DNA of 64,000 nt, from positions 496,001-560,000 of the forward strand of contig NZ_PGFH01000001.1 in assembly GCF_002797685.1 (NCBI RefSeq), written 5' to 3'. Origin of the DNA: Salinibacterium amurskyense (lineage in GTDB: Bacteria; Actinomycetota; Actinomycetes; Actinomycetales; Microbacteriaceae). The notes beneath the pieces are model-generated. The model did not search any database, was not told the DNA's origin, and saw nothing but the letters and a program-made list of their open reading frames with translations. The position numbers were made by a program, and so were the translations under genes. Positions 14,442 to 31,711 of the stretch are shown piece after piece; positions within the stretch are counted from its first letter, which is position 1; each line of letters begins with the position of its first letter.

Positions 14442-14996
14442 TTAGACCTTGGTTTCGTCTACCAGCGCAGGGTGGAAGAGACGCGGGCCACCACTAGCCT
14501 TTGCCGAGTCGTCGTACACCGTTCCATTCGGTGAGGAGACGATCTCCAACTGCATTCCCCACGGCGCCATGAAGTAGCACCACGTGAGTCCCAAGTTCGG
14601 GCCGTCGGTGTAGCTGGTGGGCTCACCGAGCACTTCAACATTGTTCGACTTGAGGTAGGCGATTGCCGCATCCATGTCGTCAACGTAGAAGGCCAAGTGG
14701 TGCCCGCCGATGTCGCTGTTCTTCGGTGGCACGGTCGCCTGATCGGGCGACTCGTATTCGAAGACCTCGAGGTTGCTTCCGTTGCCCAAGCGAAGGTAAC
14801 GGAACTCCTTAATTACGGAGCGTGGATGCACGCGTAGGTGCTCATCCATCCAGTCGGTGTCGTCATTGCGAAAGTCGGTGGCGGCCACGAACAGTGTGGT
14901 CGCCCCCAAGATCTCCTCAAAGAACGTGCACGCTTCGTTGATGTCGGGCACGGTGAAGCCAATGTGCTCCATACCGCGCATTCCGGGAATAGGCAT
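14442..14996 (-). CDS. Glyoxalase/VOC-fold metalloprotein of the catabolic operon
   Basis: A 184-residue vicinal-oxygen-chelate protein made of two beta-alpha-beta-beta-beta modules. All four expected metal ligands can be seen: His11 (GMEHIGFTV), Glu77 (NLEVFEYES), His99 or His100 (GGHHLAFYV) and Glu151 (MQLEIVSS), so it should be an active metalloenzyme: glyoxalase I, isomerase/epimerase, or dioxygenase type. It is last in a four-gene operon, 23 bases after the DhaK-DhaL kinase. Detoxifying methylglyoxal derived from triose phosphates, or isomerising a pathway intermediate, are two inferences consistent with context. Confidence 0.8.
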   Translation of the reverse strand: MPIPGMRGMEHIGFTVPDINEACTFFEEILGATTLFVAATDFRNDDTDWMDEHLRVHPRSVIKEFRYLRLGNGSNLEVFEYESPDQATVPPKNSDIGGHHLAFYVDDMDAAIAYLKSNNVEVLGEPTSYTDGPNLGLTWCYFMAPWGMQLEIVSSPNGTVYDDSAKASGGPRLFHPALVDETKV

Positions 14997-15019
14997 GTGA
15001 TTCTCCTCGTACTTCGTCG

Positions 15020-16747
15020 TTACTTAGCGGATGTGGGTTCGAACAGGGCGGCCATGGTGCTCACGATCATGCCGAAAGACACGGCGCCAGGGTCGGGGTA
15101 GCCGAGCGAGCGCTGAGCAAGCACACGAGCGCGACCGATCTTCGGCTCGAGCTGGGCGGTCTCGGCTGCTGCGGTCGTCGCAACCGTGGCTGCGATCGCC
15201 CACGCTTCAGCGGCAGACTTGCCGTCGGCGGCAGCCGCTTCGAAGGCATCTGCGAAGGGAACCTGCGCGCACACCATCGTCTTGTCGCCAACCTGCGCTC
15301 CACCCAAACGGAGGATCGAGTCGATGAAGGCCCGGATGGCGCGGGCCTGAGCTGCGGCGTCGACAATGTCAGTGTCGCCCAGCGCGTTGCCCGCTGCGGC
15401 CAGTGCTGCACCCCAGAGTGCTCCGGATGCTCCACCCGCGTTTTCGGACCAGCGCGAGCCGGCACCGACCAACGTGGACTGCGCGCCAGCACCTTCGGCG
15501 GCAAGCCATTCGGCGGCTTCGGCTGCAGCGCGTGATCCGCGTTCCATGCCGACTCCGTGGTCACCATCGCCGGCGATCGCGTCGAGGTCGCCGAGCTCTT
15601 CCATCTTCTCAGCGAGAAGAGTCTTGACCTGGGCGAGGCCGCGAGCGATGTGCTGAGCGGCAGCCTGAGATTCGCTGCTGCCGGGGGCTCGAACAACGAG
15701 ACCTTCTGGTTCCGTGTTGAAGACGGTGCCTTCCGGAAGTAGCGGGTCGAGAAGCGGTCCGCGCTTGTACGCGGGGGTGTCACAGGGAGCGAAGTAGTAG
15801 GGCTCGATCGTGTCGTCGAGCCAGATCAGCGTGAGGGAGACCCCACCCATGTCCAGCGACGTCATGAACTCGCCGACTTCGCCATCCACGATCTCGATTC
15901 CCGCAGCGTTGAGGTGCTTCGTCACCGAGGTGTACGTGACGAACAGCTCTTCGTACTTTGCCGAGCCGAGCCCATTGAGCAGAACAGCGACTCGCTTGCC
16001 GGGGTTCTCGGGCACATCTTCAAGGAGTCGTTCAACGAGAAGCTGAGCAACCTCGTCGGCGGTGCCCAGGTCAGTTTCGTAGATACCGGGTTCACCGTGA
16101 ACGCCGAGCCCGACGCCGATCGTGCCGTCGGCAACCTCAAAGAGCGGGTGACTAGCACCCGGAAGCGTGCATCCCGAGAAGGCAACGCCAAAGGTGCGCA
16201 CGCGCTCGTTGGCACGGTTGAACACTTCGAGAACCTCATCGATGGAGAGGCCAGCCTCAGCCGCGGCGGATGCCATTTTGAAGACCGGGAGGCCGCCAGT
16301 GATGCCGCGGCGCTTGTGGCGTTCGGTGATCGGAGCCGAAGCCACGTCATCCGTGACAACCGCTTCGCGAGCGTCGATACCGTCGGCGCGAAGCTGCTCG
16401 GCAGCCTGCCCGAAGTGCAGAACGTCGCCCGCGTAGTTGAGGAACGCGATGATGACTCCGGAGCCTTGATCTACCGCTTTGGCCACGCTGTACGCCTGTG
16501 ACCCCGAGGGGGAGGAGAAGATGTTGCCGGTCACGGCGCCATCCACGAGTCCTGATCCCACCCACCCCATGAAGCCGGGGTAGTGGCCAGTGCCGCCGCC
16601 GGTGACGATGGCCACCTTGCCCGGTTTCGACTGGGTTGAACGCACGACGCCGCCGAATACTTCACGGACATAGCGCGAGTTGGCCTGGATGAATCCCTGC
16701 ACTAACTCTTTGGGAAAGTCGGCCGGGTCATTTACGAGACTGGTCAT
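15020..16747 (-). CDS. DhaK-DhaL fused ATP-dependent dihydroxyacetone/erythrulose-type kinase
   Basis: A 575-residue fusion of a DhaK substrate domain (~1-335) and a DhaL nucleotide domain (~355-575: AIAGDGDHGVGMERGSRAA, and VGAGSRWSENAGGASGALWG). The covalent substrate His is in VGLGVHGEPGI. The first glycine loop reads GGGTGHYPGFMGWVG where dihydroxyacetone kinases usually have GGGSGHEPAHAG, a difference in the substrate pocket that suggests a larger ketose such as erythrulose. Phosphorylation of a short keto sugar from ATP is expected. It lies between the phosphatase and VOC genes of the same operon; TPI-like and RpiB-like isomerases are encoded 12 kb away in the same island. Confidence 0.88.
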   Translation of the reverse strand: MTSLVNDPADFPKELVQGFIQANSRYVREVFGGVVRSTQSKPGKVAIVTGGGTGHYPGFMGWVGSGLVDGAVTGNIFSSPSGSQAYSVAKAVDQGSGVIIAFLNYAGDVLHFGQAAEQLRADGIDAREAVVTDDVASAPITERHKRRGITGGLPVFKMASAAAEAGLSIDEVLEVFNRANERVRTFGVAFSGCTLPGASHPLFEVADGTIGVGLGVHGEPGIYETDLGTADEVAQLLVERLLEDVPENPGKRVAVLLNGLGSAKYEELFVTYTSVTKHLNAAGIEIVDGEVGEFMTSLDMGGVSLTLIWLDDTIEPYYFAPCDTPAYKRGPLLDPLLPEGTVFNTEPEGLVVRAPGSSESQAAAQHIARGLAQVKTLLAEKMEELGDLDAIAGDGDHGVGMERGSRAAAEAAEWLAAEGAGAQSTLVGAGSRWSENAGGASGALWGAALAAAGNALGDTDIVDAAAQARAIRAFIDSILRLGGAQVGDKTMVCAQVPFADAFEAAAADGKSAAEAWAIAATVATTAAAETAQLEPKIGRARVLAQRSLGYPDPGAVSFGMIVSTMAALFEPTSAK

Positions 16748-16779
16748 GGAAAAACCTCCTGCTGGTGTGACGTCGTTGT

Positions 16780-17568
16780 CTAAGCTCCGCGATGAAGGAG
16801 CGGTTGTTCGAGTACTTTCTGGATATCGGTGAGACGGACTTCTGCGTGTGGTGCGATTTCAAGTGGGTCTGAGGCGACCTGAAGCGAAACTCCGGTAGCG
16901 GTGGAGCCGAGGCAATCAACGACAAGCGAAGCTCCCTCGAAGTTCTCGTCGTGGGTGAGAGTGCTTGTCGTGACGATCGTGCGTAGGCCCGCCGCATGCG
17001 CCGCCCGCATCCCGTTTTCGCTGTCCTCCACGACAACCGCAGCGTTGGCGTCGATGCCAAGCTGGTCGAGCGCGAGGAGGTAGATGTCGGGGGCGGGCTT
17101 TTTGTTCTTCACGGCATCGCCGGCAAAGATGCGGAACGCTGCCGCTTGCTGCGGCCCCACGGAGTGCTCAAGAACAGCACGCACCGAGGCTTCGGCTGAG
17201 GTGGATGCCATGGCTAGCGCCCAGCCAGCAGCGTGCGCTTCGGCGATGATTCGCGCGATTCCCGGGCGGGCCGGCATGAGGCCATCGGCTACCAAGCGCG
17301 TGTAAATCTCTGTCTTGGTGCGGTGCCAGAGGGCGACCGTCTCTGCGCGATCTTCTTCGGCAACACCGAGCTGATCGGCGACGGGGTCGGAGAAAAGGCT
17401 CGCGAGGCGTTCTTTGCCGCCGCCAATTCTGACCTTCTGCGCGTAGTCCTCAAGACTCCACTGAACGGGGACTCCAAGCTGCGCGAACATCTCGTTGAAT
17501 GCGCGCAGGTGGCCATCAACTTCGGTGTCGGCCAGCACTCCGTCGCAGTCAAAAATGAGGGCAGGCAT
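16780..17568 (-). CDS. HAD-superfamily CbbY-like sugar-phosphate phosphatase
   Basis: A 262-residue HAD hydrolase with motif I LIFDCDGVLADTEVDGH, a helical cap (~15-90), motif II MASTSAE, motif III Lys in NKKPAPDIYL and motif IV VVEDSENGMRAAH. The order and the FDCDGVLADTE signature match the CbbY/Gph/beta-phosphoglucomutase group, which in CbbY removes phosphate from inhibitory ketose bisphosphates. It lies four bases after the aldolase and 32 before the kinase, so repair or recycling of phosphorylated ketoses in this pathway is plausible. Confidence 0.88.
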   Translation of the reverse strand: MPALIFDCDGVLADTEVDGHLRAFNEMFAQLGVPVQWSLEDYAQKVRIGGGKERLASLFSDPVADQLGVAEEDRAETVALWHRTKTEIYTRLVADGLMPARPGIARIIAEAHAAGWALAMASTSAEASVRAVLEHSVGPQQAAAFRIFAGDAVKNKKPAPDIYLLALDQLGIDANAAVVVEDSENGMRAAHAAGLRTIVTTSTLTHDENFEGASLVVDCLGSTATGVSLQVASDPLEIAPHAEVRLTDIQKVLEQPLLHRGA

Positions 17569-17572
17569 GGGG

Positions 17573-18433
17573 TTACCAGGCCTTTCCGGCAGAGCCGAAC
17601 TGGGTCGTCAGGTCGAGCACCATGTCAACGACATCGGCTGACGTGCTGGTGAACAACGACGGCGGATCCCACTTGTTCGCGGCGGCTGCCGTCTCGAGAA
17701 ACGCGAGACTCGACTTCATATAGGTCTCTTTGAGGGCGGTCGAGATGTTCACCTTGGCGCACCCGCGAGCGATCAGTTCAGTGAACTGCTCGGGGGAGAG
17801 GCCGCTACCGCCGTGGAGGGCGATGGGGATCGGGTGTCGGGTGACGATTTCGGTCACTCGGTTGAAGTCGATCACGGGCTCGGAAAGGTACGTGCCGTGG
17901 GCGTTGCCGATCGAGGGCGCGAACACGTCGACCCCGGTGGCTTCGATGAAGTCCAGCGAAGCTTGCAACGGATGCTGAGACGAGATCTCGTCGGAACCGT
18001 GCCCGTCTTCGACGCCGGTGATGGCTTCAATCTCACCTTCGACACTGGCGCCGTAGATGCGGGCTTCGCGAACAACCTCGATGGTTTGCCGCTGGTTTTC
18101 GGCAACCGGCATGGCCGAAGCGTCGAAGTGAACGGAGTTCCATCCAAGCTTCAAGCAGGTGGTGAGAAGCTCGCGGTCGGGGCAGTGGTCAAGGTGAAGA
18201 GAAACCGGAACGCTGATTCCCGCGGTCATCGACTTCCACATGCTGGCGAGAATCTCAGGGCCGATGCTGCGCACCGTCTTGACCGATGTTTGCACGATGA
18301 GCGGTGAGGATGCTTGAACTGCACCCGCGAGAACGCTTTCCATCGTCAGGTCGTTGAAGACGTTGATTGCGGGAACCCCGAAGCGCTCCTCGAAGGCTCG
18401 ATCCACAATTTCTGAAACTGGTACAACGCTCAC
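17573..18433 (-). CDS. Class II (zinc) ketose-phosphate aldolase
   Basis: A 286-residue FbaA/GatY/KbaY-type aldolase. Zinc and catalytic residues are visible: SLHLDHCPD, SVEGEIEAITG, SIGNAHGTY, ALHGGSGLS and the phosphate loop KVNISTALK. The sequence EGEIEAITGVEDG differs from the EGELG common to glycolytic enzymes, and together with the operon context suggests a dedicated catabolic aldolase releasing dihydroxyacetone phosphate from a keto sugar phosphate. GTG start with AAGGGAG six bases upstream. First gene of the leftward operon; the shared CCCT-N9-TAGGGGAA element lies 67 bp upstream. Confidence 0.88.
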   Translation of the reverse strand: MSVVPVSEIVDRAFEERFGVPAINVFNDLTMESVLAGAVQASSPLIVQTSVKTVRSIGPEILASMWKSMTAGISVPVSLHLDHCPDRELLTTCLKLGWNSVHFDASAMPVAENQRQTIEVVREARIYGASVEGEIEAITGVEDGHGSDEISSQHPLQASLDFIEATGVDVFAPSIGNAHGTYLSEPVIDFNRVTEIVTRHPIPIALHGGSGLSPEQFTELIARGCAKVNISTALKETYMKSSLAFLETAAAANKWDPPSLFTSTSADVVDMVLDLTTQFGSAGKAW

Positions 18434-18499
18434 TGCAACTCCCTTGTTTTAGCTGGCTTCACGCTATTCCCGCCGGAGGTGCTGAGGATATGAGGATTC

Positions 18500-18521
18500 T
18501 CCCTCCCTCCCGGTAGGGGAA
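18500..18521. promoter_or_regulatory. Candidate operator A of the catabolic regulon
   Basis: CCCT, nine bases, TAGGGGAA lies between the aldolase start and the end of the regulator gene. The same arrangement recurs upstream of E1 (20484-20506) and of the sugar-binding protein (24248-24269). The arms ATTC...GAAT make it partly palindromic. It is the probable target of the LuxR-type regulator encoded alongside. Confidence 0.6.
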
Positions 18522-18551
18522 TCTCCTATGCGTCAGCGAGCGAGGGCGTGA

Positions 18552-20390
18552 TCAGCGCGTGGGATCGATGCTGACGAGCATTGTGCGGTTGCGAGAGCCT
18601 GTCTTTCTGAGCAGGGAGCCAACATGCTTCTCGACTGTTTTGGCCGAGATGCCGAGCGACGTTGCGATCTGTTTGTCGGCCATACCGAGGGCCACCATCT
18701 CGCGCACCTCACGCTCGCGCGCGGTGAGGTGTTCGGCGTTGACGTCGCTCTCGAACGTCTCCGTTAGATGATCGAACATGTCGCTTTCCATGAGCGTCTG
18801 CCCCTGGCTGGCAGCAACCAGAATGCGGATGATCGTGTCGGCGCTCGACTTGCTGTTGATGTAGCCACGCGCGCCGGCAGCCTTCGCTGCCCGAATCTGT
18901 TCGACGGTGGGGTTGTCGGTGAGAACCACAATCGCGATCTCTGGGGCGAGTGCGCGAATGGCCGCTAGTGAACCAGTTTTGTCACTGTGAACCAGCTCGA
19001 GATCGACCAGCAGAACATCGGGGCGGAACAGCTCGTAGGCATCCAGAAGCTGCGGCGTTGAGTTCACTACGGCAGCCACCTGGATCGCGGGCTCGTTCGT
19101 GTTGATCACCCTCACCAGCCCGGCATTGATGAGCGTTTGATCGTTGGCGATCACGATCTTCCATTGCGGCCGATCGAGACGGTCGGGCAGGGTGCTGCGA
19201 TCGGGGATGACCGCGTGCACCTTGGTTCCCCAGCCCACGATCGGCTCGAGCGTGAGTTCGCCCGACAGGTGGAGGGCGCGGGAGGTCATGCCGTGCAGAC
19301 CCAGGCAGCCGGAGGGTAGGGATGAGTGATCTCCGTGTGCTTCGGCGAGATCGAAACCACGCCCGTTGTCTTCGATGAGAACCTCAGTGCGGCCCTCGCT
19401 GTAGACCAAGCCAACGCGCACGCTTGACGCGCGAGCGTGCGAGACAACGTTGCTTAGCGCTTCTTGTGCAATCTTGAACAGCTGATGCGCCACCTCGGGG
19501 CCGGTATCGCGTTCGGTGCCGATCACGGTCAGTTGGGTTTGAGCGGCGGTCATCGATTCGACCCAGCCCAACTCGGCCTGCAGGGCAGACTGCAGACTGC
19601 GGCCTTCGAGGGACGCCGGCCCGAGCCCCTGCGCGGTGCGGCGCGTCTCGGCCAGGGTGTCGTGCGCGAGGGTGCGCACGGCGTGGATGTGCGGAGTCGC
19701 GGGGCTGTCGACTTCGAGGCAGGAGCTCACATCGTCGAGTCGCTGCAAGAGTTCGCCGAGCGAGCGCCCGATCGTTTCGTGCACTTCGCGCACCGCACGT
19801 TCGCGTTCAGCTGCGATGGCACTTTCGCGCTCCCGCTCCGAGGCTTTGGCGTGAAGTTCGGCATTCGCTAGAGCAATGGCGGCGTGGTTAGCAAAGACCT
19901 CGGCGAGCTTGGCATCCTCGTCCGTGAAGACACGGGCACGGTCGGCAGCGAAGATGACACAAGTGCCCACGATTTTCTGTTCCCAGAAGATCGGGACGCC
20001 GATGACGGCACAATCCCAGCGGGGATCGTCGGTTGAAATGTGGCTCGATCCGACGGTGGAGTAGGTCGCAAACATGACGGTTTGGCGAGCGCGAACGACG
20101 CGGCCGGTCACGCCCTCGGTGAGCGAGAAGGTTTCCCCCTCCTGGCAGCCGACACCGAAATCCACCTTCTTCGTGTACGTGCCTCTGGCCTCGTCGACGA
20201 GAGAAATCGATCCGGATTCGCATCCAAGAAGCGAGGTCGCGTGCCCCAGAATTCGCTCGAGAAGCGGGCCCAATTCGAACCGGCCGGCGAGGTCGCGCGC
20301 CAGCGTTGAAACCGTAGACATGGGGGTGTCTGGGGGTGTCGCGCTCTGGTGTTCGAGAACAGTAGAGGGAATTCCGGGTTCACTTCGCAT
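18552..20390 (-). CDS. Single-chain GAF / histidine kinase / receiver / LuxR regulator
   Basis: A 612-residue fusion of what is normally two proteins. Domains in order: GAF (~28-178), a coiled-coil linker with HisKA_3 (His204 in AVREVHETIG), HATPase (N-box ALSNVVSHA near 314, DNGRGFD at ~341), receiver (~410-525, phospho-acceptor Asp463 in LLVDLEL, Lys514) and a NarL/LuxR helix-turn-helix (~553-605, LTAREREVREMVALGMADKQIA). The receiver's usual N-terminal acid pair is Asn-Asp. AAGGAGG precedes the ATG. No membrane segment, so it senses a cytoplasmic ligand, perhaps through GAF. It lies between the two arms of the catabolic island and is the obvious local regulator. Confidence 0.9.
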   Translation of the reverse strand: MRSEPGIPSTVLEHQSATPPDTPMSTVSTLARDLAGRFELGPLLERILGHATSLLGCESGSISLVDEARGTYTKKVDFGVGCQEGETFSLTEGVTGRVVRARQTVMFATYSTVGSSHISTDDPRWDCAVIGVPIFWEQKIVGTCVIFAADRARVFTDEDAKLAEVFANHAAIALANAELHAKASERERESAIAAERERAVREVHETIGRSLGELLQRLDDVSSCLEVDSPATPHIHAVRTLAHDTLAETRRTAQGLGPASLEGRSLQSALQAELGWVESMTAAQTQLTVIGTERDTGPEVAHQLFKIAQEALSNVVSHARASSVRVGLVYSEGRTEVLIEDNGRGFDLAEAHGDHSSLPSGCLGLHGMTSRALHLSGELTLEPIVGWGTKVHAVIPDRSTLPDRLDRPQWKIVIANDQTLINAGLVRVINTNEPAIQVAAVVNSTPQLLDAYELFRPDVLLVDLELVHSDKTGSLAAIRALAPEIAIVVLTDNPTVEQIRAAKAAGARGYINSKSSADTIIRILVAASQGQTLMESDMFDHLTETFESDVNAEHLTAREREVREMVALGMADKQIATSLGISAKTVEKHVGSLLRKTGSRNRTMLVSIDPTR

Positions 20391-20474
20391 AACGAGCAGT
20401 CCTCCTTGACTGCACCAAATACTAGGTCATTTGCATATATGTGCGCATACCTGATGGATCCTTAGCTGCATCAC

Positions 20475-20506
20475 GTAGGGTCATCCCTACCCGCGGCCTA
20501 GGGGAA
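20475..20506. promoter_or_regulatory. Candidate operator B of the catabolic regulon (regulator/E1 intergenic)
   Basis: A perfect GTAGGG-N4-CCCTAC inverted repeat (20475-20490) runs into CCCT-N10-TAGGGGAA (20485-20506). It lies between the divergent regulator and E1 genes and matches the composite site at 24240-24269 upstream of the transporter operon. Confidence 0.65.
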
Positions 20507-20625: not shown

Positions 20626-22830
20626 ATGCCTAGCTCCAAAAACCTATTGCCAGCCTCACCGTGGGTCGAATTCAAAGCCACCCGCAAGGACTGGGATGAA
20701 GCCAACCCGGCACTACTGGGAAACATGATTGCGCAAGCGCATCTGATCCGCGCCTTCGAAGAAACCGTGCTCGACCTGGCCGGGCAAAAGCTCGTTAACG
20801 GCCCGGCTCACTCCAGCATCGGCCAAGAGGGTGGCGCCGTCGGCTCGATCATCCCACTGCAGCAAGCAGACCAGATCAACGGTTCGCACCGTGGGCATCA
20901 CCAATTTCTTGCGAAGGCGTTCGGTTACGTAGCCCCCGACGGGCTCGACCCGCAGGCTGAGATCTCCGGCGACGTGCAAACAGTCTTGGAACGCGCGCTC
21001 GCCGAAATCTGTGGTCTCGCCTCGGGCTACTGCGGTGGTCGCGGTGGTTCGATGCACCTCCAGTGGAAGGAAGCGGGCGCACTCGGCACCAACGCCATCG
21101 TAGGTGGCGCTGTTCCCTTCGCCGCCGGATTCGCCTGGGCCGGTAAGCACTCCGGTACGGATGCTGTTTCCGTCACCTACTTCGGCGACGGTGCCATGAA
21201 CATTGGCTCCGTTCTCGAAACCCTCAACCTTGCCTCGGCGTGGGATCTCCCGGTCTGCTTCTTCGTGGAGAACAACCAGTACGCAGTGTCGACCACGGTA
21301 GAAGAATCAACCGGCGAACCCCGTCTTTCGGCTCGCGCCCTGGGCTTCAACATCCCCAGCTGGCAGGTCGACGGTATGGACCCATTGGCCGTTCACCTCG
21401 CTATGGAGCAAGCCGTGGCTCACATGCGAGCCGGCGGTGGCCCGACGATGATCGAAGCTAATGTGTACCGGTACTTCCACCAGAACGGTCCCATCGCGGG
21501 CAGCGCCTTCGGGTACCGCGAGAAGAGCGAAGAGCAGGAATGGCGCGAACGCGACCCGCTCAAGATGCTCGAAGCCAACCTCATCCGTCGCAAGATCATG
21601 ACCGAGGATGAGATCAGCCAGTTGCGCGCTCGCGCCAAGAAAGCGATGAACGTTGCTTCTTCTGCGCTGCTTGAGCCGAACCCGGCCGGTGGCGGAACGC
21701 AGCGCATCCGCCCCGAACTGTGGCCCGACGAGAGCACGATTGACGACGGTATTCGTAGCGACCTTTCTGAACTCGCGTCGAGCGACTACAAAGAAGCTGC
21801 CGACTTCGAAGGCAAGACCGAATCGCGCAAATTCGTCGATGTCATTGCCGACGTGATGGCACGACGCATGGACCAGAACCCCGCGATCGTGGTGTTGGGT
21901 GAAGACGTTCACAAGCTCAACGGTGGCCCCCGCGGTGCCACTCGCGGGCTCAAAGAACTCCACCCCGATCGAGTGCTCGGCACGCCGATTAGCGAGGCAG
22001 CGTTCACCGGATTCGCCGGAGGATTGGCCCTCGACGGCCGCTACGTTCCTGTCGTTGAACTCATGTACGCCGACTTCCTCTGGGTGGCGGCCGACCAGCT
22101 GTTCAACCAGATCGGAAAAGCGCGCCACATGTTCGGCGGTAAGCACGACATGAACCTCGTCATGCGCATCAAGGTAGGCACTCGAACCGGCTACGGATCA
22201 CAGCACTCCATGGATCCGGCGGGCGCGATGGCATCGTCGGTGGGCTGGCGAATTGCCGCACCATCCACCCCTATCGATTACATCGGGATGATGAACACGG
22301 CCCTGGCCTGCAACGACCCGGTAGCGATGCTCGAACACGACGCCGACCTCTACAAGACCTTCGGCGATACCCCGGTCGATGACATGGACTTCCGTATTCC
22401 GATCGGCTCGGCAGCGATCCGCCGCGAGGGCGCCGAAGTCACCGTGTTGACGTACCTCTCGATGGTTCAAGAGTCTTTGGATGCCGCCGAAAAGTCCGGC
22501 GTTGACGCTGAAGTTGTCGACCTGCGCTGGCTCGACCCCGCGAGCATCGATTGGGCGACGATCGGCGAGAGCATCAAGAAAACCAACCGCGTCATGATCG
22601 TGGAACAGGGTTCGCGAGGCACATCATACGGGGCTTGGCTCAGCGACGAGATTCAGCGCCGGTTCTTTGACTGGCTGGATGCTCCGATCGAGCGAGTTAC
22701 TGGCTCAGAATCGTCACCCAGCATCAGTCGCATTCTCGAAGCCGCAGCGCTCGCCAACGTCGATGATGTTGCCTCGAGCATGCGTGCGATCGTTGGCCTT
22801 CCGAACGGTGATGCAGAGGGGTCGCTCTAA
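20626..22830 (+). CDS. Fused E1 alpha-beta thiamine-diphosphate dehydrogenase (acetoin/2-oxoacid type)
   Basis: A 734-residue fusion of E1 alpha (~1-385) and E1 beta (~400-730). The alpha part has the thiamine diphosphate motif FGDGAMNIG...FFVENN and CGGRGGSMHL; the beta part has VVLGEDVHKLNGGPRGATRGL, TPISEAAFTGFAGGLAL and RTGYGSQHS. Such E1s decarboxylate 2-oxo acids or, in acetoin dehydrogenases, cleave an alpha-hydroxyketone and pass the acyl group to a lipoyl E2. The mid-region LEPNPAGGGTQRIRPELWP is a linker. GAACGAGGGATCG precedes the ATG. Stop overlaps E2 start. The housekeeping actinobacterial enzyme is AceE, so this is a dedicated complex; substrate is not predictable from sequence. 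Confidence 0.88.
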   Translation: MPSSKNLLPASPWVEFKATRKDWDEANPALLGNMIAQAHLIRAFEETVLDLAGQKLVNGPAHSSIGQEGGAVGSIIPLQQADQINGSHRGHHQFLAKAFGYVAPDGLDPQAEISGDVQTVLERALAEICGLASGYCGGRGGSMHLQWKEAGALGTNAIVGGAVPFAAGFAWAGKHSGTDAVSVTYFGDGAMNIGSVLETLNLASAWDLPVCFFVENNQYAVSTTVEESTGEPRLSARALGFNIPSWQVDGMDPLAVHLAMEQAVAHMRAGGGPTMIEANVYRYFHQNGPIAGSAFGYREKSEEQEWRERDPLKMLEANLIRRKIMTEDEISQLRARAKKAMNVASSALLEPNPAGGGTQRIRPELWPDESTIDDGIRSDLSELASSDYKEAADFEGKTESRKFVDVIADVMARRMDQNPAIVVLGEDVHKLNGGPRGATRGLKELHPDRVLGTPISEAAFTGFAGGLALDGRYVPVVELMYADFLWVAADQLFNQIGKARHMFGGKHDMNLVMRIKVGTRTGYGSQHSMDPAGAMASSVGWRIAAPSTPIDYIGMMNTALACNDPVAMLEHDADLYKTFGDTPVDDMDFRIPIGSAAIRREGAEVTVLTYLSMVQESLDAAEKSGVDAEVVDLRWLDPASIDWATIGESIKKTNRVMIVEQGSRGTSYGAWLSDEIQRRFFDWLDAPIERVTGSESSPSISRILEAAALANVDDVASSMRAIVGLPNGDAEGSL

Positions 22831-24217: not shown

Positions 24218-24228
24218 GTGCGCCTACC

Positions 24229-24354: not shown

Positions 24355-25410
24355 ATGAAGCTCGCACGCAGCAGGTTTATCGGAGCCAGCGTTACCGCGC
24401 TCGCCGTTTCAGCACTTGTCGCCGGATGTGGCACCGTCGACGCAGGCGGCGGAAGCGCCGGCGGCGAAGACGGAGACAAGTTCCGCATCGTCACCGTGTC
24501 GAAGGTGGAAGGAATCACTTGGTTCCAACGCATGAGTGAAGGCGTTGACATGTTCAACGACGCTTACGGCGATGAAGTTGAGGCATACCAGACGGGCCCC
24601 GCCGAGGGAGACCCGGCGCTTCAGGTTCAGATCGTTGAAGACCTCATCGCTCAGAACGTTGATGCCATCATCGTCGTTCCGAATGACCCCATCGGTATCG
24701 GTCCCGTACTCGAGCGGGCCCGCGAAGCCGGAATCGTAGTCGGTGTCACTGAAGCAACTCAGCTCGTCGGTACGGAATCCATCGACTTCGACATCGAGTC
24801 GTTCGACAACGCCGACTTCGGCGTCGGCTTTGCCAAGGGCCTCGCCGAGGCAATGGGTGGCGAGGGAGAGTACGTCACGAGCGTCGGAAACCTCACGAGT
24901 GAGTCGCACTTGCTCTGGCTCGAAGCAGCAAACAACTACATCGCAGAGAACCACCCCGACATGGTGTTGGTTGAGCCGACACCGTACGAGAACAACAACG
25001 ATGACCAGCAGGGTCGCGAACTCGCCGACGAACTGCTGAGCACCTACCCGAACCTCAAGGGTTACCTCACCACCACACCGTCAGGTGGATCGGGAATGGC
25101 TTCGGCTCTTCGCGATAAGGGACGTACAGACGTTGCCAACGTCTCCCTCACCTTGCCTTCGGTTGCCGGTCCTGACCTCGAAGACGGCTACATGGACTTC
25201 GGCCAGGGCTGGGACCCGGCCGGCTGGGGTTGGGCACTCAACTCGGTAGCACTCTCGATCCTCAAGGGCGAGACCGTTGCCACAGGCGATGACCTCGCAT
25301 GGGAACTCGGTGGCTACGAGTCGATCGTCGTTGACGGTCAGCTCATCTTGGGCAATGACATCCAGCCCTACATCCCGGGTCAGTTCTCCGACGGAAACTA
25401 CCCCTTCTAG
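24355..25410 (+). CDS. Sugar ABC transporter substrate-binding lipoprotein (RbsB/AlsB class)
   Basis: A 351-residue periplasmic-binding-protein-type receptor. The signal peptide ends at the lipobox ALVAGC (Cys near residue 23), followed by a Gly-rich tether. The core has the ribose-binding-protein pattern FRIVTVSKVEGITWFQRMSEG at the first strand, EDLIAQNVDAIIVVPNDP and a CUT2-type domain order. AAAGGAGAA precedes the ATG. It heads the operon SBP-ATPase-permease-permease-RpiB-TPI and is followed by a stable hairpin. The ligand is unknown; a short ketose or polyol fits the enzymes encoded with it. Confidence 0.92.
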   Translation: MKLARSRFIGASVTALAVSALVAGCGTVDAGGGSAGGEDGDKFRIVTVSKVEGITWFQRMSEGVDMFNDAYGDEVEAYQTGPAEGDPALQVQIVEDLIAQNVDAIIVVPNDPIGIGPVLERAREAGIVVGVTEATQLVGTESIDFDIESFDNADFGVGFAKGLAEAMGGEGEYVTSVGNLTSESHLLWLEAANNYIAENHPDMVLVEPTPYENNNDDQQGRELADELLSTYPNLKGYLTTTPSGGSGMASALRDKGRTDVANVSLTLPSVAGPDLEDGYMDFGQGWDPAGWGWALNSVALSILKGETVATGDDLAWELGGYESIVVDGQLILGNDIQPYIPGQFSDGNYPF

Positions 25411-25424
25411 GTCTACGGACTAGC

Positions 25425-25456
25425 GGTTGGGGGAAGCGATCACGCTTCCCCCAACC
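25425..25456 (+). promoter_or_regulatory. Perfect 14-bp hairpin between binding protein and ATPase genes
   Basis: GGTTGGGGGAAGCG and CGCTTCCCCCAACC flank a four-base loop (ATCA). There is no U-run. Hairpins at this place in ABC operons commonly stabilise the upstream message or partly terminate, so the binding protein is made in excess of the membrane components. Confidence 0.75.
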
Positions 25457-25498
25457 TCACCGAACCGTGGCACGACCGTAAGTAAACGGAGACCTTCA

Positions 25499-27085
25499 AT
25501 GACTGAATCACCCATTCTCTCCGCGCGAGGCTTAGCGAAGTCTTTTGGGGGAGTTCAAGCCCTCCATGGCATTGACTTCGAAGTCGGTGTGGGAGAGATC
25601 CGCTGCTTGGCAGGCGAGAACGGCTCCGGCAAGTCCACGTTCGTCAAGATCATCTCGGGCGTCAACACCGCCGACCACGGCACGATTACTATCGCCGGCG
25701 AAGAGATGACCAGCATGAATCCGCGCGAAGCTAGCGCCGCCGGCATTCAGGTTATCTACCAAGACCTTTCACTTTTCGGCCACCTCTCGGTCGCCGAAAA
25801 CATCGCGATTAATCGCATGATGCACGACGGCTCACGCTTCGTGAACCGCACCACCATGCGCGAGATCGCCCAGCAGCAGCTCACTCGAGTCGGTGTCGAT
25901 CTCCCGCTCGATGCGCCGGTCTCCTCGCTCTCTGTAGCGAATAAACAGATTGTGGCAATTTGCCGGGCCCTGTCGATGGATGCCCGCATTCTGTTCATGG
26001 ATGAGCCAACCACCGCGCTCACCGGCCGCGAAGTGCAGCGACTGCTCTCGATCATCATTGACCTGAAAGATCGCGGCCTTTCGACCGTCTTCATCAGCCA
26101 CAAACTCGATGAAGTGTTTGAAGTCGCCGACAGCATCACCATCTTCCGGGATGGCGCCAAGGTCGGTGATTTTGCGGCCAGCGACCTGGATGAGCTGAGC
26201 TTGAGCCGCCACATGACCGGTCGCGATGTGACCTACAACCGCTACGTTCGCGAACAGACCGATGACGCCCCCATTCTTGAAGTTGCGGGGCTCAGCCGCA
26301 AAGGCAACTACGAGAACGTTGACTTCAGCATTCGTCCCGGCGATATCGTGGGGCTCACTGGTCTCCTCGGTTCGGGTCGCACCGAACTCGCTCTTTCACT
26401 GTTTGGGTTGAACAAGCCAGACTCCGGCACCATTGCGATGCGCGGCAAGCAGGTCGACGTTTCGGCGCCCTGGGTTGCTATGAAGCACGGCATCGCGCTG
26501 CTGCCCGAAGACCGCTTGAGTCAGGGGCTGTTCCCGGCCCAGTCGGTGGCGGTCAACGCTTCAGCAACCATGCTCGATCGCATCGTCAACAAAATTGGAA
26601 TGCTTAGCAGGCCACTCGAAAAGGCCCTTGCTGACACGATCGTGCGCGAGCTGCAGGTTAACAATCGCGATACGTCAACTCCGGTCATCCATCTCTCCGG
26701 TGGAAACCAGCAAAAGGTTGCCATTGGTAAGTGGATCAAACGTAACCCCTCGATTTTCATTCTGGATAGCCCGACCGTAGGTATCGACATCGGGTCGAAA
26801 TCGGAGATCTACGAACAGATTCACCGACTGGCCGAAAGTGGCATGGGCGTGCTGTTCATCTCTGACGAGCCAGAAGAGATCGTGGCCAACTGCAACCGTG
26901 TTGTCGTGATGCACGCCGGTGCAGTTGACGCGCGATTTACCGAAGACGATGTTGCGGCTGCCGGTTTCAAAGAGCAGCTGATTCATGCGATTAGTGCACC
27001 GCGCCATGGCGGTGATGTCGTCATTGCTGACGCCACCGCCATCGACGCCGAATCCCAGAGCAAGGGGCTCAACAATGATGCGTAA
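25499..27085 (+). CDS. Sugar ABC transporter ATP-binding protein (RbsA/MglA class, two ABC domains)
   Basis: A 528-residue tandem ATPase. First ABC: Walker A GENGSGKSTFVK, switch region, Walker B ARILFMDEPTTAL. Second ABC: degenerate Walker A LLGSGRTELAL as usual in this class, signature HLSGGNQQKVAIGKW and SPTVGIDIGSKSEIY. ATG 25499 was chosen because ACGGAG lies ten bases upstream; an open extension to 25427 would include the hairpin and is rejected. Powers the two permeases downstream. Confidence 0.95.
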   Translation: MTESPILSARGLAKSFGGVQALHGIDFEVGVGEIRCLAGENGSGKSTFVKIISGVNTADHGTITIAGEEMTSMNPREASAAGIQVIYQDLSLFGHLSVAENIAINRMMHDGSRFVNRTTMREIAQQQLTRVGVDLPLDAPVSSLSVANKQIVAICRALSMDARILFMDEPTTALTGREVQRLLSIIIDLKDRGLSTVFISHKLDEVFEVADSITIFRDGAKVGDFAASDLDELSLSRHMTGRDVTYNRYVREQTDDAPILEVAGLSRKGNYENVDFSIRPGDIVGLTGLLGSGRTELALSLFGLNKPDSGTIAMRGKQVDVSAPWVAMKHGIALLPEDRLSQGLFPAQSVAVNASATMLDRIVNKIGMLSRPLEKALADTIVRELQVNNRDTSTPVIHLSGGNQQKVAIGKWIKRNPSIFILDSPTVGIDIGSKSEIYEQIHRLAESGMGVLFISDEPEEIVANCNRVVVMHAGAVDARFTEDDVAAAGFKEQLIHAISAPRHGGDVVIADATAIDAESQSKGLNNDA

Positions 27086-28103: not shown

Positions 28104-28115
28104 GGAGCGGCTCTC

Positions 28116-29162
28116 ATGAACAAGGTATTCAAGTTCCTCGGTCGAGACCGAGACCTGTCGATTCTGGGGTTCGTCACCACCGCGGTCATCGTGGTGCTCT
28201 ATCTGATGCTCGGATCACGGCTGTTCTCGATCGGTGGCCTGCAGTCGATGTCGATCCAGGTCAGCGAATTCGGCTTTCTCGCCTTGGCGATGGGGCTGGC
28301 CATGCTGGTTGCGGGAATCGACCTCTCGGTTGTTGCCGCAGCGGGCCTCTCCGGCGTAATGGCAGCGCTCACGATGAGCGGGGAGTTCATTCCGATCACG
28401 CCAGAGAACGAGACCCAAATAATCATTCTGGGTGTGGTTGTTGCTCTCACCACGGGTTTGCTCACCGGGCTGCTCAACGGCTTCATCATCGCCAAGCTGT
28501 CGGTTCCCCCGATTCTGGCGACGCTCGGAACCATGATTCTCTACACCGGAATCGGCACCGCCATTACCTCGGGCTCCAGCATTTCGCTCAAGGTCCCTAG
28601 CTTCGCGAAACTCGCGACCTCCACGGTGGGCCCACTGCCGATGGTGTTCGTGATGCTCCTGGCAACCTTCATCATCGTGAGCCTGATCCTCACGCGAACC
28701 CGCTTCGGGCGCAAGGTCTACCTCTTCGGCGAGAACGAAGTGGCCGTGCGCTTCTCGGGCATCAAATCGGAACGCGTGATCTTGATGACGTATGCCATCA
28801 TCGGCATCCTCGTGGGGCTCGCCGCCATCGTGATCATCGCCCGTGCCAACTCGATGCGCGTCGGCTTCGGGGAGTCCTATCTTTTGCAGGCCATTCTCGT
28901 GGTGGTACTTGCAGGCTTCAACCCGCTGGGAGGAAAGGGTCGAGTGCTCAACCTCGGCATCGCTCTCGTGCTCTTGCAGGTCATCTCTACATCGATGACG
29001 GCCTTTGCCTTCTCGCCGTACGCCAAGAACATCGTGTGGGGCGGCATCCTGATCGCCGTCATGGGAATGAACCACTACCTGCGAGCGGGAGCTCCACGTG
29101 CACGACGTCAAGAGCCGCCAAGTGAAACCGTCGCGATCGCGTTAGAACAATCGCGGCGCTAG
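28116..29162 (+). CDS. Sugar ABC transporter permease 2 (RbsC/BPD_transp_2 class)
   Basis: A 348-residue permease of the same family, with [29 protein letters not shown] and [28 protein letters not shown]. It starts 12 bases after permease 1; the two probably form a heterodimeric channel, as in AI-2/rhamnose-type importers. AGGGAGCGG precedes the ATG. Confidence 0.93.
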
Positions 29163-29176
29163 ACAGGGAGAAGAGA

Positions 29177-29656
29177 ATGCAAGGTTTGAGAATTGTGATT
29201 GGCTGCGACGAAGCAGGCTATGACTACAAAGAACAATTGCGGGCCGACCTTCTGGCCAATCCCGCAGTGGCCACCGTTACCGATGTGGGCGTGAGCGAGG
29301 GGCAGGTCGCGGCCTACCCCAGCATTGCGGTCGCTGCCGGAGAACTTGTGGCCTCGGGAGAAGCCGACCGTGCCCTGCTCGTGTGCGGCACGGGCCTAGG
29401 GATGGCGATTGCCGCCAATAAGGTTGCCGGAATTCGGGCCGTGACAGCGCACGACAGCTACTCCGTAGAGCGCGCCGTGCTCAGCAACAATGCCCAGGTG
29501 CTCACGCTGGGCCAGCGGGTAGTTGGCCTTGAGCTTGCCCGCCGCCTAGCGCGCGAGTGGCTCGGGTACACCTTCGACGTATCCAGCGCTTCGGCGGAGA
29601 AGGTCAAAGTGATCAACGACTACGAATCGAGAGAGCGGGCGCAGAGCCATGGATGA
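29177..29656 (+). CDS. RpiB/LacAB-family sugar-phosphate isomerase (possible D-erythrulose-4-phosphate isomerase)
   Basis: A 159-residue RpiB-type isomerase with the sugar-phosphate loop [21 protein letters not shown] and the N-terminal [16 protein letters not shown] (family: GSDHAGFELK). The usual HAG is EAG, so the first catalytic/phosphate His is changed. Typical RpiB acts on ribulose 5-phosphate; paralogues encoded with TPI-like partners (EryI, DerI) act on erythrulose 4-phosphate to make erythrose 4-phosphate. GACAGGGAGAAG precedes the ATG. Overlaps the TPI-like gene by eight bases. Confidence 0.85.
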
Positions 29657-30425
29657 CCAGCACTCAGTGATCGTGGGAGTCGGGCTCAAGATGTATATGA
29701 GTCACAAAGACACCATGGAGTGGATCAACCTCGTTCGCGGAATCGCTAAAAGTCATCCGGCGGTCACCGCCGGGGTCGTCGAGCTTTTTGTCCTACCGTC
29801 GTTCACCGCCGTTATCCCGTCGGTCTTTGCTCTGCGGGATGCCCGAGTGGCCGTCGGTGCCCAAGACCTTTTTTGGGAAGACCGCGGAGCTTTCACTGGT
29901 GAAGTGAGTGGACGCGATCTGGCCGAGATCGGCTGCACCTTCGTTGAGGTCGGGCATGCCGAGCGGCGTCGAGTGCTGGGGGAGAGTGAAAGCATCGTGA
30001 GTCAAAAGATGCTCGCCGCCTTTCGCAACTCGCTCACGCCCGTGCTCTGCATTGGCGAGCCCGAGCGGGTATCGGCAGTCGATGCCGCCGCTGAGTGCTC
30101 TCGGCAACTGTGGTCAGCGCTCGAGGCGAGCAAGGCGCAGGGCAAAGCCACCAAGCTCATCGTTGCTTATGAGCCTCAGTGGGCGATCGGTGCTCCCGAG
30201 CCCGCCTCTGCGGAATTCATCCGCGAAGTTGTCGGTATTCTCCGCATCGAAATCGACAGCGATCCCGTATTACGCGGCACCCGCGTCATTTACGGCGGCA
30301 GCGCCGGCCCGAAGCAGCTTGAAGCGCTGAGCGGCGCAGTCGACGGTCTCTTTCTGGGGCGCAGTGCCCACGACGCTGGTGCGTTGAAACACGTACTCGA
30401 TGAGGCGTGGCACCTGATCGGCTAA
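29649..30425 (+). CDS. Triosephosphate-isomerase-like enzyme (possible erythrulose-1-phosphate isomerase)
   Basis: A 258-residue TIM-barrel protein of TPI length. Catalytic Lys is in [10 protein letters not shown], the electrophile His in EVGHAERRR, the catalytic Glu in [10 protein letters not shown] and the phosphate loop in [10 protein letters not shown] and GLFLGRSA. The N-terminal GNWKMN of glycolytic TPI is changed to GLKMY, losing the conserved Asn, and GHSERR is GHAERR, so a different substrate is likely. TPI-like EryH/LerI isomerases of erythritol and threitol pathways convert L-erythrulose 1-phosphate and are paired with RpiB-like enzymes, exactly as here. Assignment by analogy. Confidence 0.85.
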
Positions 30426-30457
30426 TACTTGGGGCGACGCTGCGCCAGACTGTACTC

Positions 30458-31711
30458 ATGGACATCGACCGCGCAGTGCAATCCCGCATCGTCCGCACTC
30501 TCGTCGCGGGCCAAGTGCTCGCCGGGTTGGGTCTCGGTGCGACAGTGGCGGTGGGCGCGATTCTGGCTGCCGATCTGGGCGGCGAGACGCTTTCGGGCGC
30601 GGCTGCGACATCCAGCACCCTGGGTGCAGCTCTTGTGTCGATTCCGCTTGCTCGACTTGCCGCTCGCTGGGGCCGTCGACCCGCGCTGGCGCTGGGAGCT
30701 GGCGTTGCCGCAGGTGGCTCGCTCATCACCGTGGTCGCGGTGGGCGTCGCATTCTTCCCGCTGCTCATTCTTGGATTCGCGATGCTCGGAGTCGGCACCG
30801 CCGTGGGCTTGCAGGCGCGCTTTGCAGCGACGGATGTAGCTGCTCCCCAGCACCGCGGTCGTGACCTCTCTCTCGTGGTCTGGTCGACCACGATCGGCGC
30901 GGTGGCCGGCCCGAACCTTGTCGGCCCGGGTGAGGCCATTGCTCAGTGGCTGTCGCTGCCCACCAATACGGGTTCCTTCGTGTTCGCGATCGTGGCCCAG
31001 CTCGCCGCGATGATGCTGTACCTCGTGGCGTTGCGCCCCGATCCGCTCACTCTCGCTCGCAATCGCCCGGTCGACGCCGCGGTGGCAGCGGATGCCGGAA
31101 TCGTGCGCGGCAAGGGCCCGTTGGTCTTCGCCGTTGCTGCTATCGCGATTAGCCACGCGGTGATGGTCTCGATCATGGCAATGACGCCCGTGCACTTGAG
31201 TCACCACGGAGCGAGTCTCACGATCATCGGCTTCACGATCAGCCTGCACATCGCCGGCATGTACGCACTCTCGCCGGTGTTCGGCTGGGCGAGTGACCGG
31301 TTCGGTCGCATCCCGACGATTCTGATTGGGCAGGGATTCTTTGCGGCATCCGTGGTTGTCGTCGCTCTGGGCGAGCTCAGTAATACGGCTGTCACCGTGG
31401 GGCTCGTTTTGCTGGGTCTCGGTTGGAGCGCATCGACCGTTGCAGGGTCGGCGCTCGTTGCTGATCTGGCCACTGGTAAAACGAAGTTGCGCATTCAGGG
31501 TCGAAGCGACACCATCATGAGCCTCGCGGGTGCGCTCGGTGGCGGTTTTGCCGGGCCGATCTTGGCGATGGTCGGGTACGCCGGGCTCGCGTGGGGCGCC
31601 GGGGTTCTCGTGCTCATCATCGTCGTGGCCGCGCTCGTCGTGTGGCGAAGCGCCTCTGTGGCTGCCGCCGAAGAGCTGCTGCTGGCGGAGAGTGCTGACG
31701 CGGCGTCGTAA
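30458..31711 (+). CDS. Major facilitator superfamily transporter
   Basis: A 417-residue MFS protein with twelve hydrophobic helices; the loop 2-3 motif is LARLAARWGRRPALALG and the equivalent in the second half SPVFGWASDRFGRIPTIL. It begins 32 bases after the TPI-like gene on the same strand, without a clear Shine-Dalgarno site, so it may be the last gene of the island or independent. Efflux or uptake cannot be distinguished. Confidence 0.88.
   Translation: MDIDRAVQSRIVRTLVAGQVLAGLGLGATVAVGAILAADLGGETLSGAAATSSTLGAALVSIPLARLAARWGRRPALALGAGVAAGGSLITVVAVGVAFFPLLILGFAMLGVGTAVGLQARFAATDVAAPQHRGRDLSLVVWSTTIGAVAGPNLVGPGEAIAQWLSLPTNTGSFVFAIVAQLAAMMLYLVALRPDPLTLARNRPVDAAVAADAGIVRGKGPLVFAVAAIAISHAVMVSIMAMTPVHLSHHGASLTIIGFTISLHIAGMYALSPVFGWASDRFGRIPTILIGQGFFAASVVVVALGELSNTAVTVGLVLLGLGWSASTVAGSALVADLATGKTKLRIQGRSDTIMSLAGALGGGFAGPILAMVGYAGLAWGAGVLVLIIVVAALVVWRSASVAAAEELLLAESADAAS

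Follow-up and report, generated by a model that had tools for sequence, protein, structure and literature searches.

A conserved gene cluster in Salinibacterium amurskyense that may link a lipoyl E1/E2 complex to the catabolism of four-carbon sugars

A gene cluster of Salinibacterium amurskyense was found to encode a thiamine-dependent E1/E2 complex beside genes of sugar phosphate metabolism, and this conserved cluster probably serves the catabolism of a small four-carbon sugar. As judged from sequence comparisons, the E1/E2 complex is intact and inherited together with a class II aldolase (ALD) and a CbbY-family phosphatase, and its E1 falls in a clade of its own that is linked to sugar genes and carries two extra basic residues, a point absent from an earlier note on this DNA. 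Related to the acetoin and pyruvate dehydrogenase complexes, it seems to have been re-tuned to split a sugar phosphate.

Gene content and conservation of the cluster

The window analyzed was a 64,000-nucleotide stretch (contig NZ_PGFH01000001.1, positions 496,001 to 560,000). Family assignment of its open reading frames revealed two divergent gene runs that make up the cluster at 14442..31711. The minus-strand run includes a VOC-fold protein, a fused DhaK-DhaL kinase, the CbbY-family HAD phosphatase, ALD, and a regulator (REG), and the plus-strand run includes the fused E1, E2, a CUT2 importer, an RpiB-type and a TIM-type isomerase, and an MFS transporter. Every gene listed in the earlier note was recovered in its place and family, and the proposal that they form one catabolic island is borne out by the linkage of the E1 clade described below and by recurrence in two Cryobacterium genomes (loci L055 and L056), where the synteny of the island was kept. 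The MFS transporter (30407..31711, plus strand; PF07690), which overlaps the TIM-type gene, had been counted as a member of the island; the gene is present in the window, but it is absent from the Cryobacterium layout, with no match within 10 kb downstream of E1 in either locus, and the conserved part of the island thus stops at about 30425. Additionally, a phosphofructokinase (PFK) gene is an extra in the clusters of relatives (6 of 20 loci) and is missing from the cluster in the window.

As had been noted, neither a lipoamide dehydrogenase (E3) nor a polyol (tetritol) dehydrogenase was found among the genes of 14442..31711, where E1 is the sole dehydrogenase. An E3 is encoded elsewhere in the genome (C1:1520117; 453.9 bits against a curated cut-off of 408.8), and SDR-type dehydrogenases adjoin a separate, second DhaKL/RpiB/TIM set of the same genome (locus L163). 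The single regulator was confirmed by domain matches to be one chain of GAF, histidine kinase, receiver, and LuxR domains (18552..20390, minus strand), with an identity of 64-65% in Cryobacterium and of 40-48% in those stand-alone ALD-CbbY-DhaLK loci that have one. The VOC-fold protein (14442..14996, minus strand; 184 amino acids; Glyoxalase PF13669/PF00903) weakly resembles methylmalonyl-CoA epimerase (27 bits) and shares an identity of 86% in both Cryobacterium loci and of 45-58% in VOC-type loci.

Importer, kinase, and isomerases

All four importer genes are on the plus strand. These included a CUT2 periplasmic binding lipoprotein (24355..25410; PF13407; nearest solved proteins 5bra, 3d02, and 9i1m), an ATPase identified by family match (25427..27085), whose start is more likely an in-frame ATG at 25499, and two permeases of PF02653 (26985..28103, with a start probably near 27075, and 28116..29162). 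The nearest solved protein, 5bra, carries ribose as its named substrate, a name that is annotation only.

The fused DhaK-DhaL protein (15020..16747, minus strand; 575 amino acids) contains the HGEPG motif and scored 700.6 bits against the cut-off of 492 for NF011049, and it is a probable erythrulose/dihydroxyacetone kinase. The RpiB-type gene (29177..29656, plus strand) is a candidate D-erythrulose-4-phosphate isomerase: it passed the cut-off of the ribose-5-phosphate isomerase model TIGR02133 (185.8 bits against 168.2) and remained below that of the D-erythrulose-4-phosphate isomerase model NF051858 (143.7 bits against 240). Similarly, the TIM-type gene (29649..30425, plus strand; PF00121) is a candidate L-erythrulose-1-phosphate isomerase, although its product is nearer to the ordinary triose-phosphate isomerase 9quu (142.7 bits) than to the L-erythrulose-1-phosphate isomerase 11ef (118.1 bits). 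The earlier suggestion that the three genes form a tetrulose phosphate set is supported by the Erwinia locus L142, where a DhaKL 55% identical to that of the window is grouped with TIM, RpiB, and another isomerase.

A sugar-linked clade of E1 proteins

The E1 (20626..22830, plus strand; 734 amino acids) is a thiamine diphosphate enzyme with alpha and beta parts fused in a single chain, composed of PF00676 and the transketolase pyrimidine and C-terminal domains (PF02779 and PF02780). The E2 acyltransferase (22830..24158, plus strand) has lipoyl, E3-binding, and catalytic domains, with the motifs ETEKA (lipoyl) and DHRPVDG. An ordinary pyruvate dehydrogenase is disfavoured, as neither protein passed a curated cut-off: E1 scored 247.3 bits against 393.85 for TIGR03182 and 214.1 against 321 for NF006667, and E2 scored 402 against 445 for TIGR01349. 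No acetoin model was among the 11 NCBIfam models matching E1, and E2 scored 63.1 bits against the acetoin E2 cut-off of 307.

A neighbourhood survey of E1, which the earlier note had proposed as a check, covered 81 loci with this E1, of which 20 were in the clade of the window and 61 outside, and it placed the E1/E2 complex with the sugar set. Both ALD and CbbY were present in 18 of the 20 clade loci, the two misses being contig ends, whereas they occurred in none of the 61 others, 55 of which had a VOC gene. In the E1 tree, the ALD/CbbY-linked proteins formed a single clade (21 of 21 rows, SH-aLRT 98). Position 55 was Lys in all 19 clade E1s and Gly in 57 of 58 others, while position 436 was Arg in all 19 and Asn in 57 of 58, respectively. 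Lys or Arg at position 55 together with R436 was present too in L061 and L019. The latter, an E1 fragment, was assigned to the clade by its residues before its neighbours were known; ALD, CbbY, and TIM genes were subsequently identified on the contig that carries it. M509 was invariant in the clade, yet 6 of 10 plasmid E1s from outside the clade had it too. Human PDH E1-alpha likewise has a Lys close to position 55. When E1 was aligned by hhalign with a linked split transketolase (E 2.5e-7), R436 fell opposite a Ser within a Ser-Ser stretch, and changes of S385 and R358 are reported to shift the substrate range of the E. coli transketolase (PMC7661550). The examined E1 relatives outside the clade neighbour aldehyde and short-chain dehydrogenases, a setting that would suit hydroxyketone cleavage.

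Transketolase genes, previously unnoticed, were found within three related clusters (L068, L141, and L159). A replacement of E1/E2 by transketolase, as first read from L141, was weakened by L068, in which E1 and E2 coexist with a split transketolase resembling the L141 one (67%/59%), and by the genome of L061, where a full transketolase gene lies next to the ALD cluster (L159). A Shinella cluster, which carries a lipoyl synthase of its own, combined a distant split E1 and E2/E3 with ALD, HAD, and an erythritol-like kinase/dehydrogenase set.

Aldolase and CbbY-like phosphatase

ALD (17573..18433, minus strand) is a class II DHAP-type aldolase (PF01116, 239.8 bits) that remained below the cut-off of every one of the 20 NCBIfam models listed for it, with no curated fructose-bisphosphate (FBP) or tagatose-bisphosphate aldolase model passed; the best curated scores were 206.9 bits for TIGR01859 (cut-off 343.05) and 188.1 for TIGR00167 (cut-off 215.6). 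The DPRK stretch present in the FBP aldolase 7ncc was missing from ALD in an alignment, so that its aldehyde substrate could be unphosphorylated.

The predicted HAD phosphatase (16780..17568, minus strand) is CbbY-like by a wide margin: its best relatives among solved proteins were the CbbY structures 4uav (194.5 bits) and 4uar (152.1 bits), and the next, non-CbbY protein scored 54.2 bits. The GGKER and KKP motifs were common to this HAD, 26 homologues, and the 4uav row of the alignment. CbbY is known as a xylulose-1,5-bisphosphatase, for which 13 signature residues were reported from the complex with xylulose-1,5-bisphosphate, a compound whose enzymatic synthesis uses DHAP together with glycolaldehyde phosphate (PMC10212915). 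The specific CbbY likeness therefore points to a xylulose-1,5-bisphosphate step, which had been overlooked. ALD-CbbY-DhaLK units were also found at 12 loci with no E1 nearby, which argues that ALD and CbbY are not dependent on E1.

Proposed route and alternatives

The leading, though tentatively held, reading of the island is the use of erythrulose, or of a compound yielding it, with E1/E2, ALD, and CbbY all taking part. The tetrulose would be taken up by the CUT2 importer and phosphorylated by DhaKL, and the two isomerases would interconvert erythrulose-1-phosphate, erythrulose-4-phosphate, and erythrose-4-phosphate. E1 would attack the ketone of tetrulose-4-phosphate, retain the C2 ketol bound to thiamine diphosphate, and release glycolaldehyde phosphate, after which the ketol would be oxidised to glycolyl-CoA by E2 and the E3 of the genome. 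ALD would condense glycolaldehyde phosphate with DHAP to xylulose-1,5-bisphosphate, from which CbbY would remove the C1 phosphate, and transketolase could combine the resulting xylulose-5-phosphate with erythrose-4-phosphate. In effect, the route would pair an oxidative transketolase with a salvage of the remaining aldehyde that is driven by the phosphatase. That the complex acts in this way on a tetrulose phosphate, coupled to ALD and CbbY as a new actinobacterial entry of C4 sugars into central metabolism, is rather doubtful.

Support comes from the linkage of ALD and CbbY to a single E1 clade with its own basic residues, the alignment of R436 with a transketolase Ser, the outcome for L019, the CbbY identity of the HAD together with the reported formation of its substrate, and the transketolase-bearing and Shinella clusters. 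Against it count the TIM and RpiB scores, the missing DPRK stretch, M509 outside the clade, the Lys near position 55 of human PDH E1-alpha, and the E1-free units. The cluster has no recognised gene for the further use of glycolyl-CoA, and no glcD over the cut-off was found in the genome (best 97.5 against 567.9 bits), leaving glycolyl-CoA with no evident outlet, which also counts against the route. The PFK of relatives is unexplained by it and would oppose the phosphatase.

A strong rival, although rather unlikely in itself, is a route of the Propionibacterium type, in which the kinase would form L-erythrulose-1-phosphate and ALD would split it into DHAP and formaldehyde (EC 4.1.2.2), with E1/E2 and CbbY as a side branch or in formaldehyde/C2 recovery. 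We know of no sequence-defined, dedicated member of EC 4.1.2.2. The failure of ALD to pass FBP or tagatose-bisphosphate cut-offs favours this route, as do 13 type-B loci, which all had ALD, HAD, and GntR, and mostly an AraM-like dehydrogenase (11) and a glycerol-kinase-like FGGY protein (10), with TIM in four. One of them is the Propionicicella locus L068, whose aldolase matched 13 genomes, including that of the window, in a class-wide sample of 394 (top identity 48%). According to PMC10733421, cleavage of erythrulose-1-phosphate had been put forward to explain how P. pentosaceum and S. meliloti use erythritol. The Propionibacterium erythritol route is described as known biochemically, could not be reconstructed from genomes, and has unassigned genes in P. 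freudenreichii (PMC4437456); the gene sets found here are concrete candidates for it. However, such a route accounts neither for E1/E2 nor for the fact that ALD and CbbY are constantly paired, and a phosphatase beside a cleaving aldolase would be odd.

ALD and HAD might instead be a sedoheptulose-bisphosphate pair, condensing erythrose-4-phosphate, the expected end of the DhaKL, TIM, and RpiB steps, with DHAP and dephosphorylating the product to sedoheptulose-7-phosphate, so that E1/E2 or the transketolases of L068, L141, and L159 would act on the resulting ketose phosphates. This is unlikely, as the HAD is CbbY-like, which to our knowledge is not an SBPase family; here too, PFK would work against the phosphatase.

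Less likely still, E1 could cleave a 1-deoxyketose or its phosphate (e.g., deoxyxylulose-5-phosphate) in an acetoin-like manner into acetyl-CoA, which requires no extra gene, and a triose (phosphate) taken by the kinase and TIM. DRL enzymes belong to the deoxyxylulose/methylerythritol step, and a DRL-family (PF21135) oxidoreductase abuts the split E1/E2/E3 of Sinorhizobium L135; however, the L135 E1 is only a distant relative (about 35%), the window cluster has no DRL gene, and RpiB, ALD, and CbbY would be unexplained. Finally, a chance position of an independent acetoin-like module beside a sugar operon, as the 61 non-sugar loci with the complex might suggest, is highly improbable and was rejected in view of the single clade of 21 linked E1s, its specific residues, the Cryobacterium synteny, and a prediction that came true in L158.

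Comparison with known systems

No description of a tetrulose set combined with E1/E2 and ALD/CbbY was found in the literature searched, in agreement with the earlier note, and nothing in the literature on deoxyxylulose or the methylotroph DHA cycle was taken to describe this cluster. The acetoin dehydrogenase complex shares a thiamine E1, a lipoyl E2 with an E3-binding domain, and the use of E3, and we take the E1 beta motif FNQ..K.R.MFGGK to resemble AcoB. In contrast, the window has a fused E1 alpha/beta, no E3 in the cluster, sugar phosphate neighbours, and K55/R436. We know of no sugar phosphate among the substrates of 2-oxo-acid/acyloin dehydrogenase complexes, and the oxidative transketolase reading, if true, would extend these complexes to sugar phosphates. 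It would also give CbbY a role outside Rubisco repair: the HAD is close in sequence to Arabidopsis and Rhodobacter CbbY, but its gene neighbours encode an aldolase and a ketose kinase, and no Calvin-cycle gene was recognised in the cluster.

The tetritol pathways of Mycolicibacterium smegmatis presumably use a DhaK-type kinase and TIM- and RpiB-type isomerases, and the window is predicted to encode the same set. These pathways (LerK/DerK, LerI, and DerI/EryI) likewise lead through a ketose kinase and isomerases to erythrose-4-phosphate, as outlined in PMC12780249 and PMC10733421; unlike them, the window lacks a tetritol dehydrogenase and adds ALD, CbbY, E1/E2, and VOC. The erythrulose monophosphate (EuMP) design shares a DHAP aldolase, erythrulose phosphate isomerases, and pentose phosphate steps with the cluster, but it is a synthetic formaldehyde assimilation, and E1/E2 is absent from the parts of its description cited here (PMC10733421). 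Whether genes of this kind are found together in natural genomes is a question raised by its authors (PMC10733421), and the gene sets identified here are concrete candidates for such a co-occurrence of erythrulose phosphate aldolases and isomerases.

Gene organization and distribution of the cluster

The earlier note had described 14442..31711 as one catabolic island joining a tetrulose-type kinase and isomerase set to an E1/E2 complex; all the listed genes were present as described, and the island is real and includes E1/E2. On the minus strand lie the VOC-fold protein, the DhaK-DhaL kinase, a HAD phosphatase (CbbY-like by sequence), the class II aldolase, and the GAF/LuxR regulator, with gaps of 23, 32, 4, and 118 bases. 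On the plus strand lie the fused thiamine diphosphate E1 (20626..22830), the lipoyl acyltransferase E2 (22830..24158), the importer, the RpiB and TIM isomerases, and the MFS protein. By ORF coordinates, the pairs E1/E2, RpiB/TIM, and TIM/MFS overlap, and 196 bases separate E2 from the binding protein. A consensus scan returned 13 terminator-like sites, no excess over the mean of 13.8 in shuffles, and one promoter-like site, fewer than the 3.2 in shuffles. Beside the cluster, 31830-32840 (+) encodes a serine hydrolase of the beta-lactamase/S12 peptidase family; codon composition supports this frame over an overlapping minus-strand ORF (31767-32744), which had no match in the family search.

In an even sample of the phylum, E1 was matched at 1e-100 in 8 of 296 genomes, and an identity above 40% was reached only in the window's own genome, G108 (72%), and G172 (64%). 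One contig of G108, a genome listed under the same phylum as the window's, is identical to the Nitriliruptoraceae record L061, which makes the window's genome actinobacterial. A scan of a named genome collection with E1 gave 106 relatives, from which 80 loci (61-77% identity) were retained. Two Cryobacterium genomes were syntenic with the window cluster from VOC through the isomerases, with the TIM/RpiB order swapped and an extra phosphofructokinase between the regulator and E1. In the Nitriliruptoraceae genome, one contig encodes a transketolase, the regulator, aldolase, HAD, DhaK-DhaL, VOC (88%), a phosphofructokinase, and a binding protein, and a second contig carries E1-E2.

Two kinds of E1 locus

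Gene presence was called by self-chosen bit-score cut-offs in 81 loci (the 80 plus L158, the window itself excluded). Among the 20 loci of the window's E1 clade, the aldolase, CbbY-type HAD, and E2 each occurred in 18, GntR in 13, an AraM-like dehydrogenase in 11, DhaK-DhaL and a glycerol-kinase-like FGGY protein in 10 each, phosphofructokinase and TIM in six each, and RpiB and VOC in two each. In the two loci lacking aldolase and HAD, L060 and L061, the sequence ahead of E1 extends for only 1094 and 71 bases, respectively; an E2 match was missing from L060 and L058. By comparison, the 61 loci outside the clade included no aldolase, HAD, or DhaK-DhaL and four FGGY genes. The fused E1 and E2 module is widespread and mostly adjoined by VOC (VOC and E2 in 55 of these 61 each, L070-L134; also L006-L015), and the VOC-type loci inspected carry aldehyde dehydrogenase, SDR, AroE-like or HIBADH-like enzymes, and diverse importers. 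Six outside loci lacked VOC: L071, L093, and L113 despite more than 3.5 kb of upstream sequence, L119 with a weaker hit, and L126 and L130 with just 235 and 88 bases upstream.

In a quick maximum-likelihood tree of 96 E1 rows, with the signature columns kept in, the 21 aldolase-linked E1s (the window and 20 others) formed one clade (SH-aLRT 98; window's subclade 100), and a 70-row VOC group had a support of only 56. The outgroup rows, namely L016 (fused) and four split E1s, are long branches.

Residues specific to the sugar-linked E1

Residues were compared between 19 aldolase-linked and 58 other E1s grouped by neighbourhood (L060 being placed by its DhaK-DhaL), with L061 and L113 set aside and two of the 80 loci having no usable frame. 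All 19 linked E1s had K55, N58, R436, and M509, versus G, H, and N in 57 of 58 others at the first three positions and V in all 58 at the last; D572 of the linked E1s is an insertion. The L061 E1 has the complete signature, and that of L019 has R55, H58, and R436. Ten plasmid fused E1s carry G (nine) or T (one) at 55 and N (nine) or S (one) at 436, and in the four split E1s these positions read G, G, A, G and F, F, F, Y, respectively. Since neither group has them, the sugar-linked branch probably acquired its basic residues at 55 and 436. M509 is not peculiar to this clade, as six of the ten plasmid E1s share it. K55 is seven residues ahead of His62, the presumed counterpart of a histidine in the active site of PDH E1-alpha. 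In an alignment with a split transketolase, R436 falls on a Ser, so both residues may sit near the thiamine site.

L019, a 5-kb E1 fragment whose ORFs were listed but unidentified, was assigned to the sugar clade by its signature residues; its contig, L158, afterwards gave AraM-like, FGGY, TIM, aldolase, HAD, GntR, E2, E1, DhaK, and DhaL genes, although a DhaK hit on the contig and E2 and DhaK-DhaL matches in the fragment predated the assignment. Among acyloin/2-oxo-acid dehydrogenases, the sugar-linked E1s constitute a new variant.

The aldolase-phosphatase unit and a proposed route

The aldolase and HAD were adjacent wherever the window's proteins matched both. Of 345 genomes in the class sample, 11 had the aldolase, the window's own among them, and identity in the 10 others was 64-73%; all 10 regions (14.8-20 kb) contained aldolase, HAD, DhaL, and DhaK, and no E1 was seen within them. 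A regulator homologue was adjacent in nine and about 7 kb off in L166. Querying with the aldolase of the Propionicicella locus L068 added L187 and L188, with the same four genes and no regulator match. With 12 such loci having no E1 nearby, the aldolase, CbbY, and dihydroxyacetone kinase form an independent unit; on the tree, E1/E2 became attached to it a single time. These stand-alone actinobacterial units (L166-L175, L187, L188; regulator adjacent in 9 of 12) perhaps salvage glycolaldehyde or dihydroxyacetone.

CbbY dephosphorylates xylulose-1,5-bisphosphate, and in the laboratory this compound is made by enzymes that couple DHAP with glycolaldehyde phosphate in an aldol addition (PMC10212915). 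The tie of phosphatase to aldolase suggests that the aldolase runs in the joining direction, pulled by phosphate loss. From family chemistry, E1 would split erythrulose-4-phosphate and release glycolaldehyde phosphate, which the aldolase would join to DHAP as xylulose-1,5-bisphosphate before CbbY removes a phosphate. A tetrulose phosphate with xylulose-5-phosphate salvage is our best reading of the substrate, held tentatively. Next in rank is an erythrulose-1-phosphate formaldehyde-lyase; according to PMC10733421, cleavage of erythrulose-1-phosphate has been proposed in both P. pentosaceum and S. meliloti.

Known tetritol pathways and related clusters

The tetritol routes of alphaproteobacteria and M. 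smegmatis end in erythrose-4-phosphate (PMC12780249), and the erythritol genes of P. freudenreichii were not located by the study's authors (PMC4437456). The main text of the latter contains neither dihydrolipoamide nor pyruvate dehydrogenase, and the consulted parts of PMC12780249, PMC10733421, and PMC4437456 make no mention of an E1/E2 complex in tetrulose use. Elsewhere in the window's genome, L163 (G000:C1:1844001-1864000) holds DhaK-DhaL, RpiB, TIM, GntR, SDRs, an AP-endonuclease-type isomerase, and CUT2 parts. As the genome already has this more standard tetrulose-type set, the window's set is a second and different one. A further locus, L165 (G000:C1:770001-790000), carries RpiB-like and FGGY genes together with a CUT2 importer whose binding protein is 41% identical to that of the window.

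In 13 type-B loci, the aldolase, HAD, GntR-UTRA, and E1/E2 occur together, accompanied by an AraM-like dehydrogenase (11), FGGY kinases of the c7 (10) or c25 (five) type, phosphofructokinase (four), or TIM (four). L068 combines FGGY, TIM, aldolase, HAD, E1, and E2 with a split transketolase and a RuBisCO-like gene. In the Shinella locus L140, a distantly related split E1/E2/E3 is found alongside two TIM genes, FGGY kinases, a GlpD-like dehydrogenase, transaldolase, lipA, and the aldolase (37%) and HAD (49%). The Cryobacterium plasmid L141 encodes aldolase, HAD, DhaL, DhaK, a glycerol facilitator, TIM, RpiB, and a split transketolase, and no E1/E2 was seen in the stretch examined. We read all of these clusters as polyol or short-ketose settings. 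The lipoyl synthase gene of the Shinella cluster (L140:148-1116) looks as if it supplied lipoate to the E1/E2/E3 complex.

E1/E2/E3 sets were also observed in Sinorhizobium and Priestia (L135, L136, L138). From L135:4627-5952 onward, Sinorhizobium has an oxidoreductase of the DRL family (PF21135) directly next to split E1, E2, and E3 genes and a class II aldolase gene, and in Priestia a SAF-domain protein and an FGGY kinase accompany E1/E2/E3 beside a sorbitol-type PTS. These settings suggest a catabolic route for methylerythritol or deoxyxylulose.
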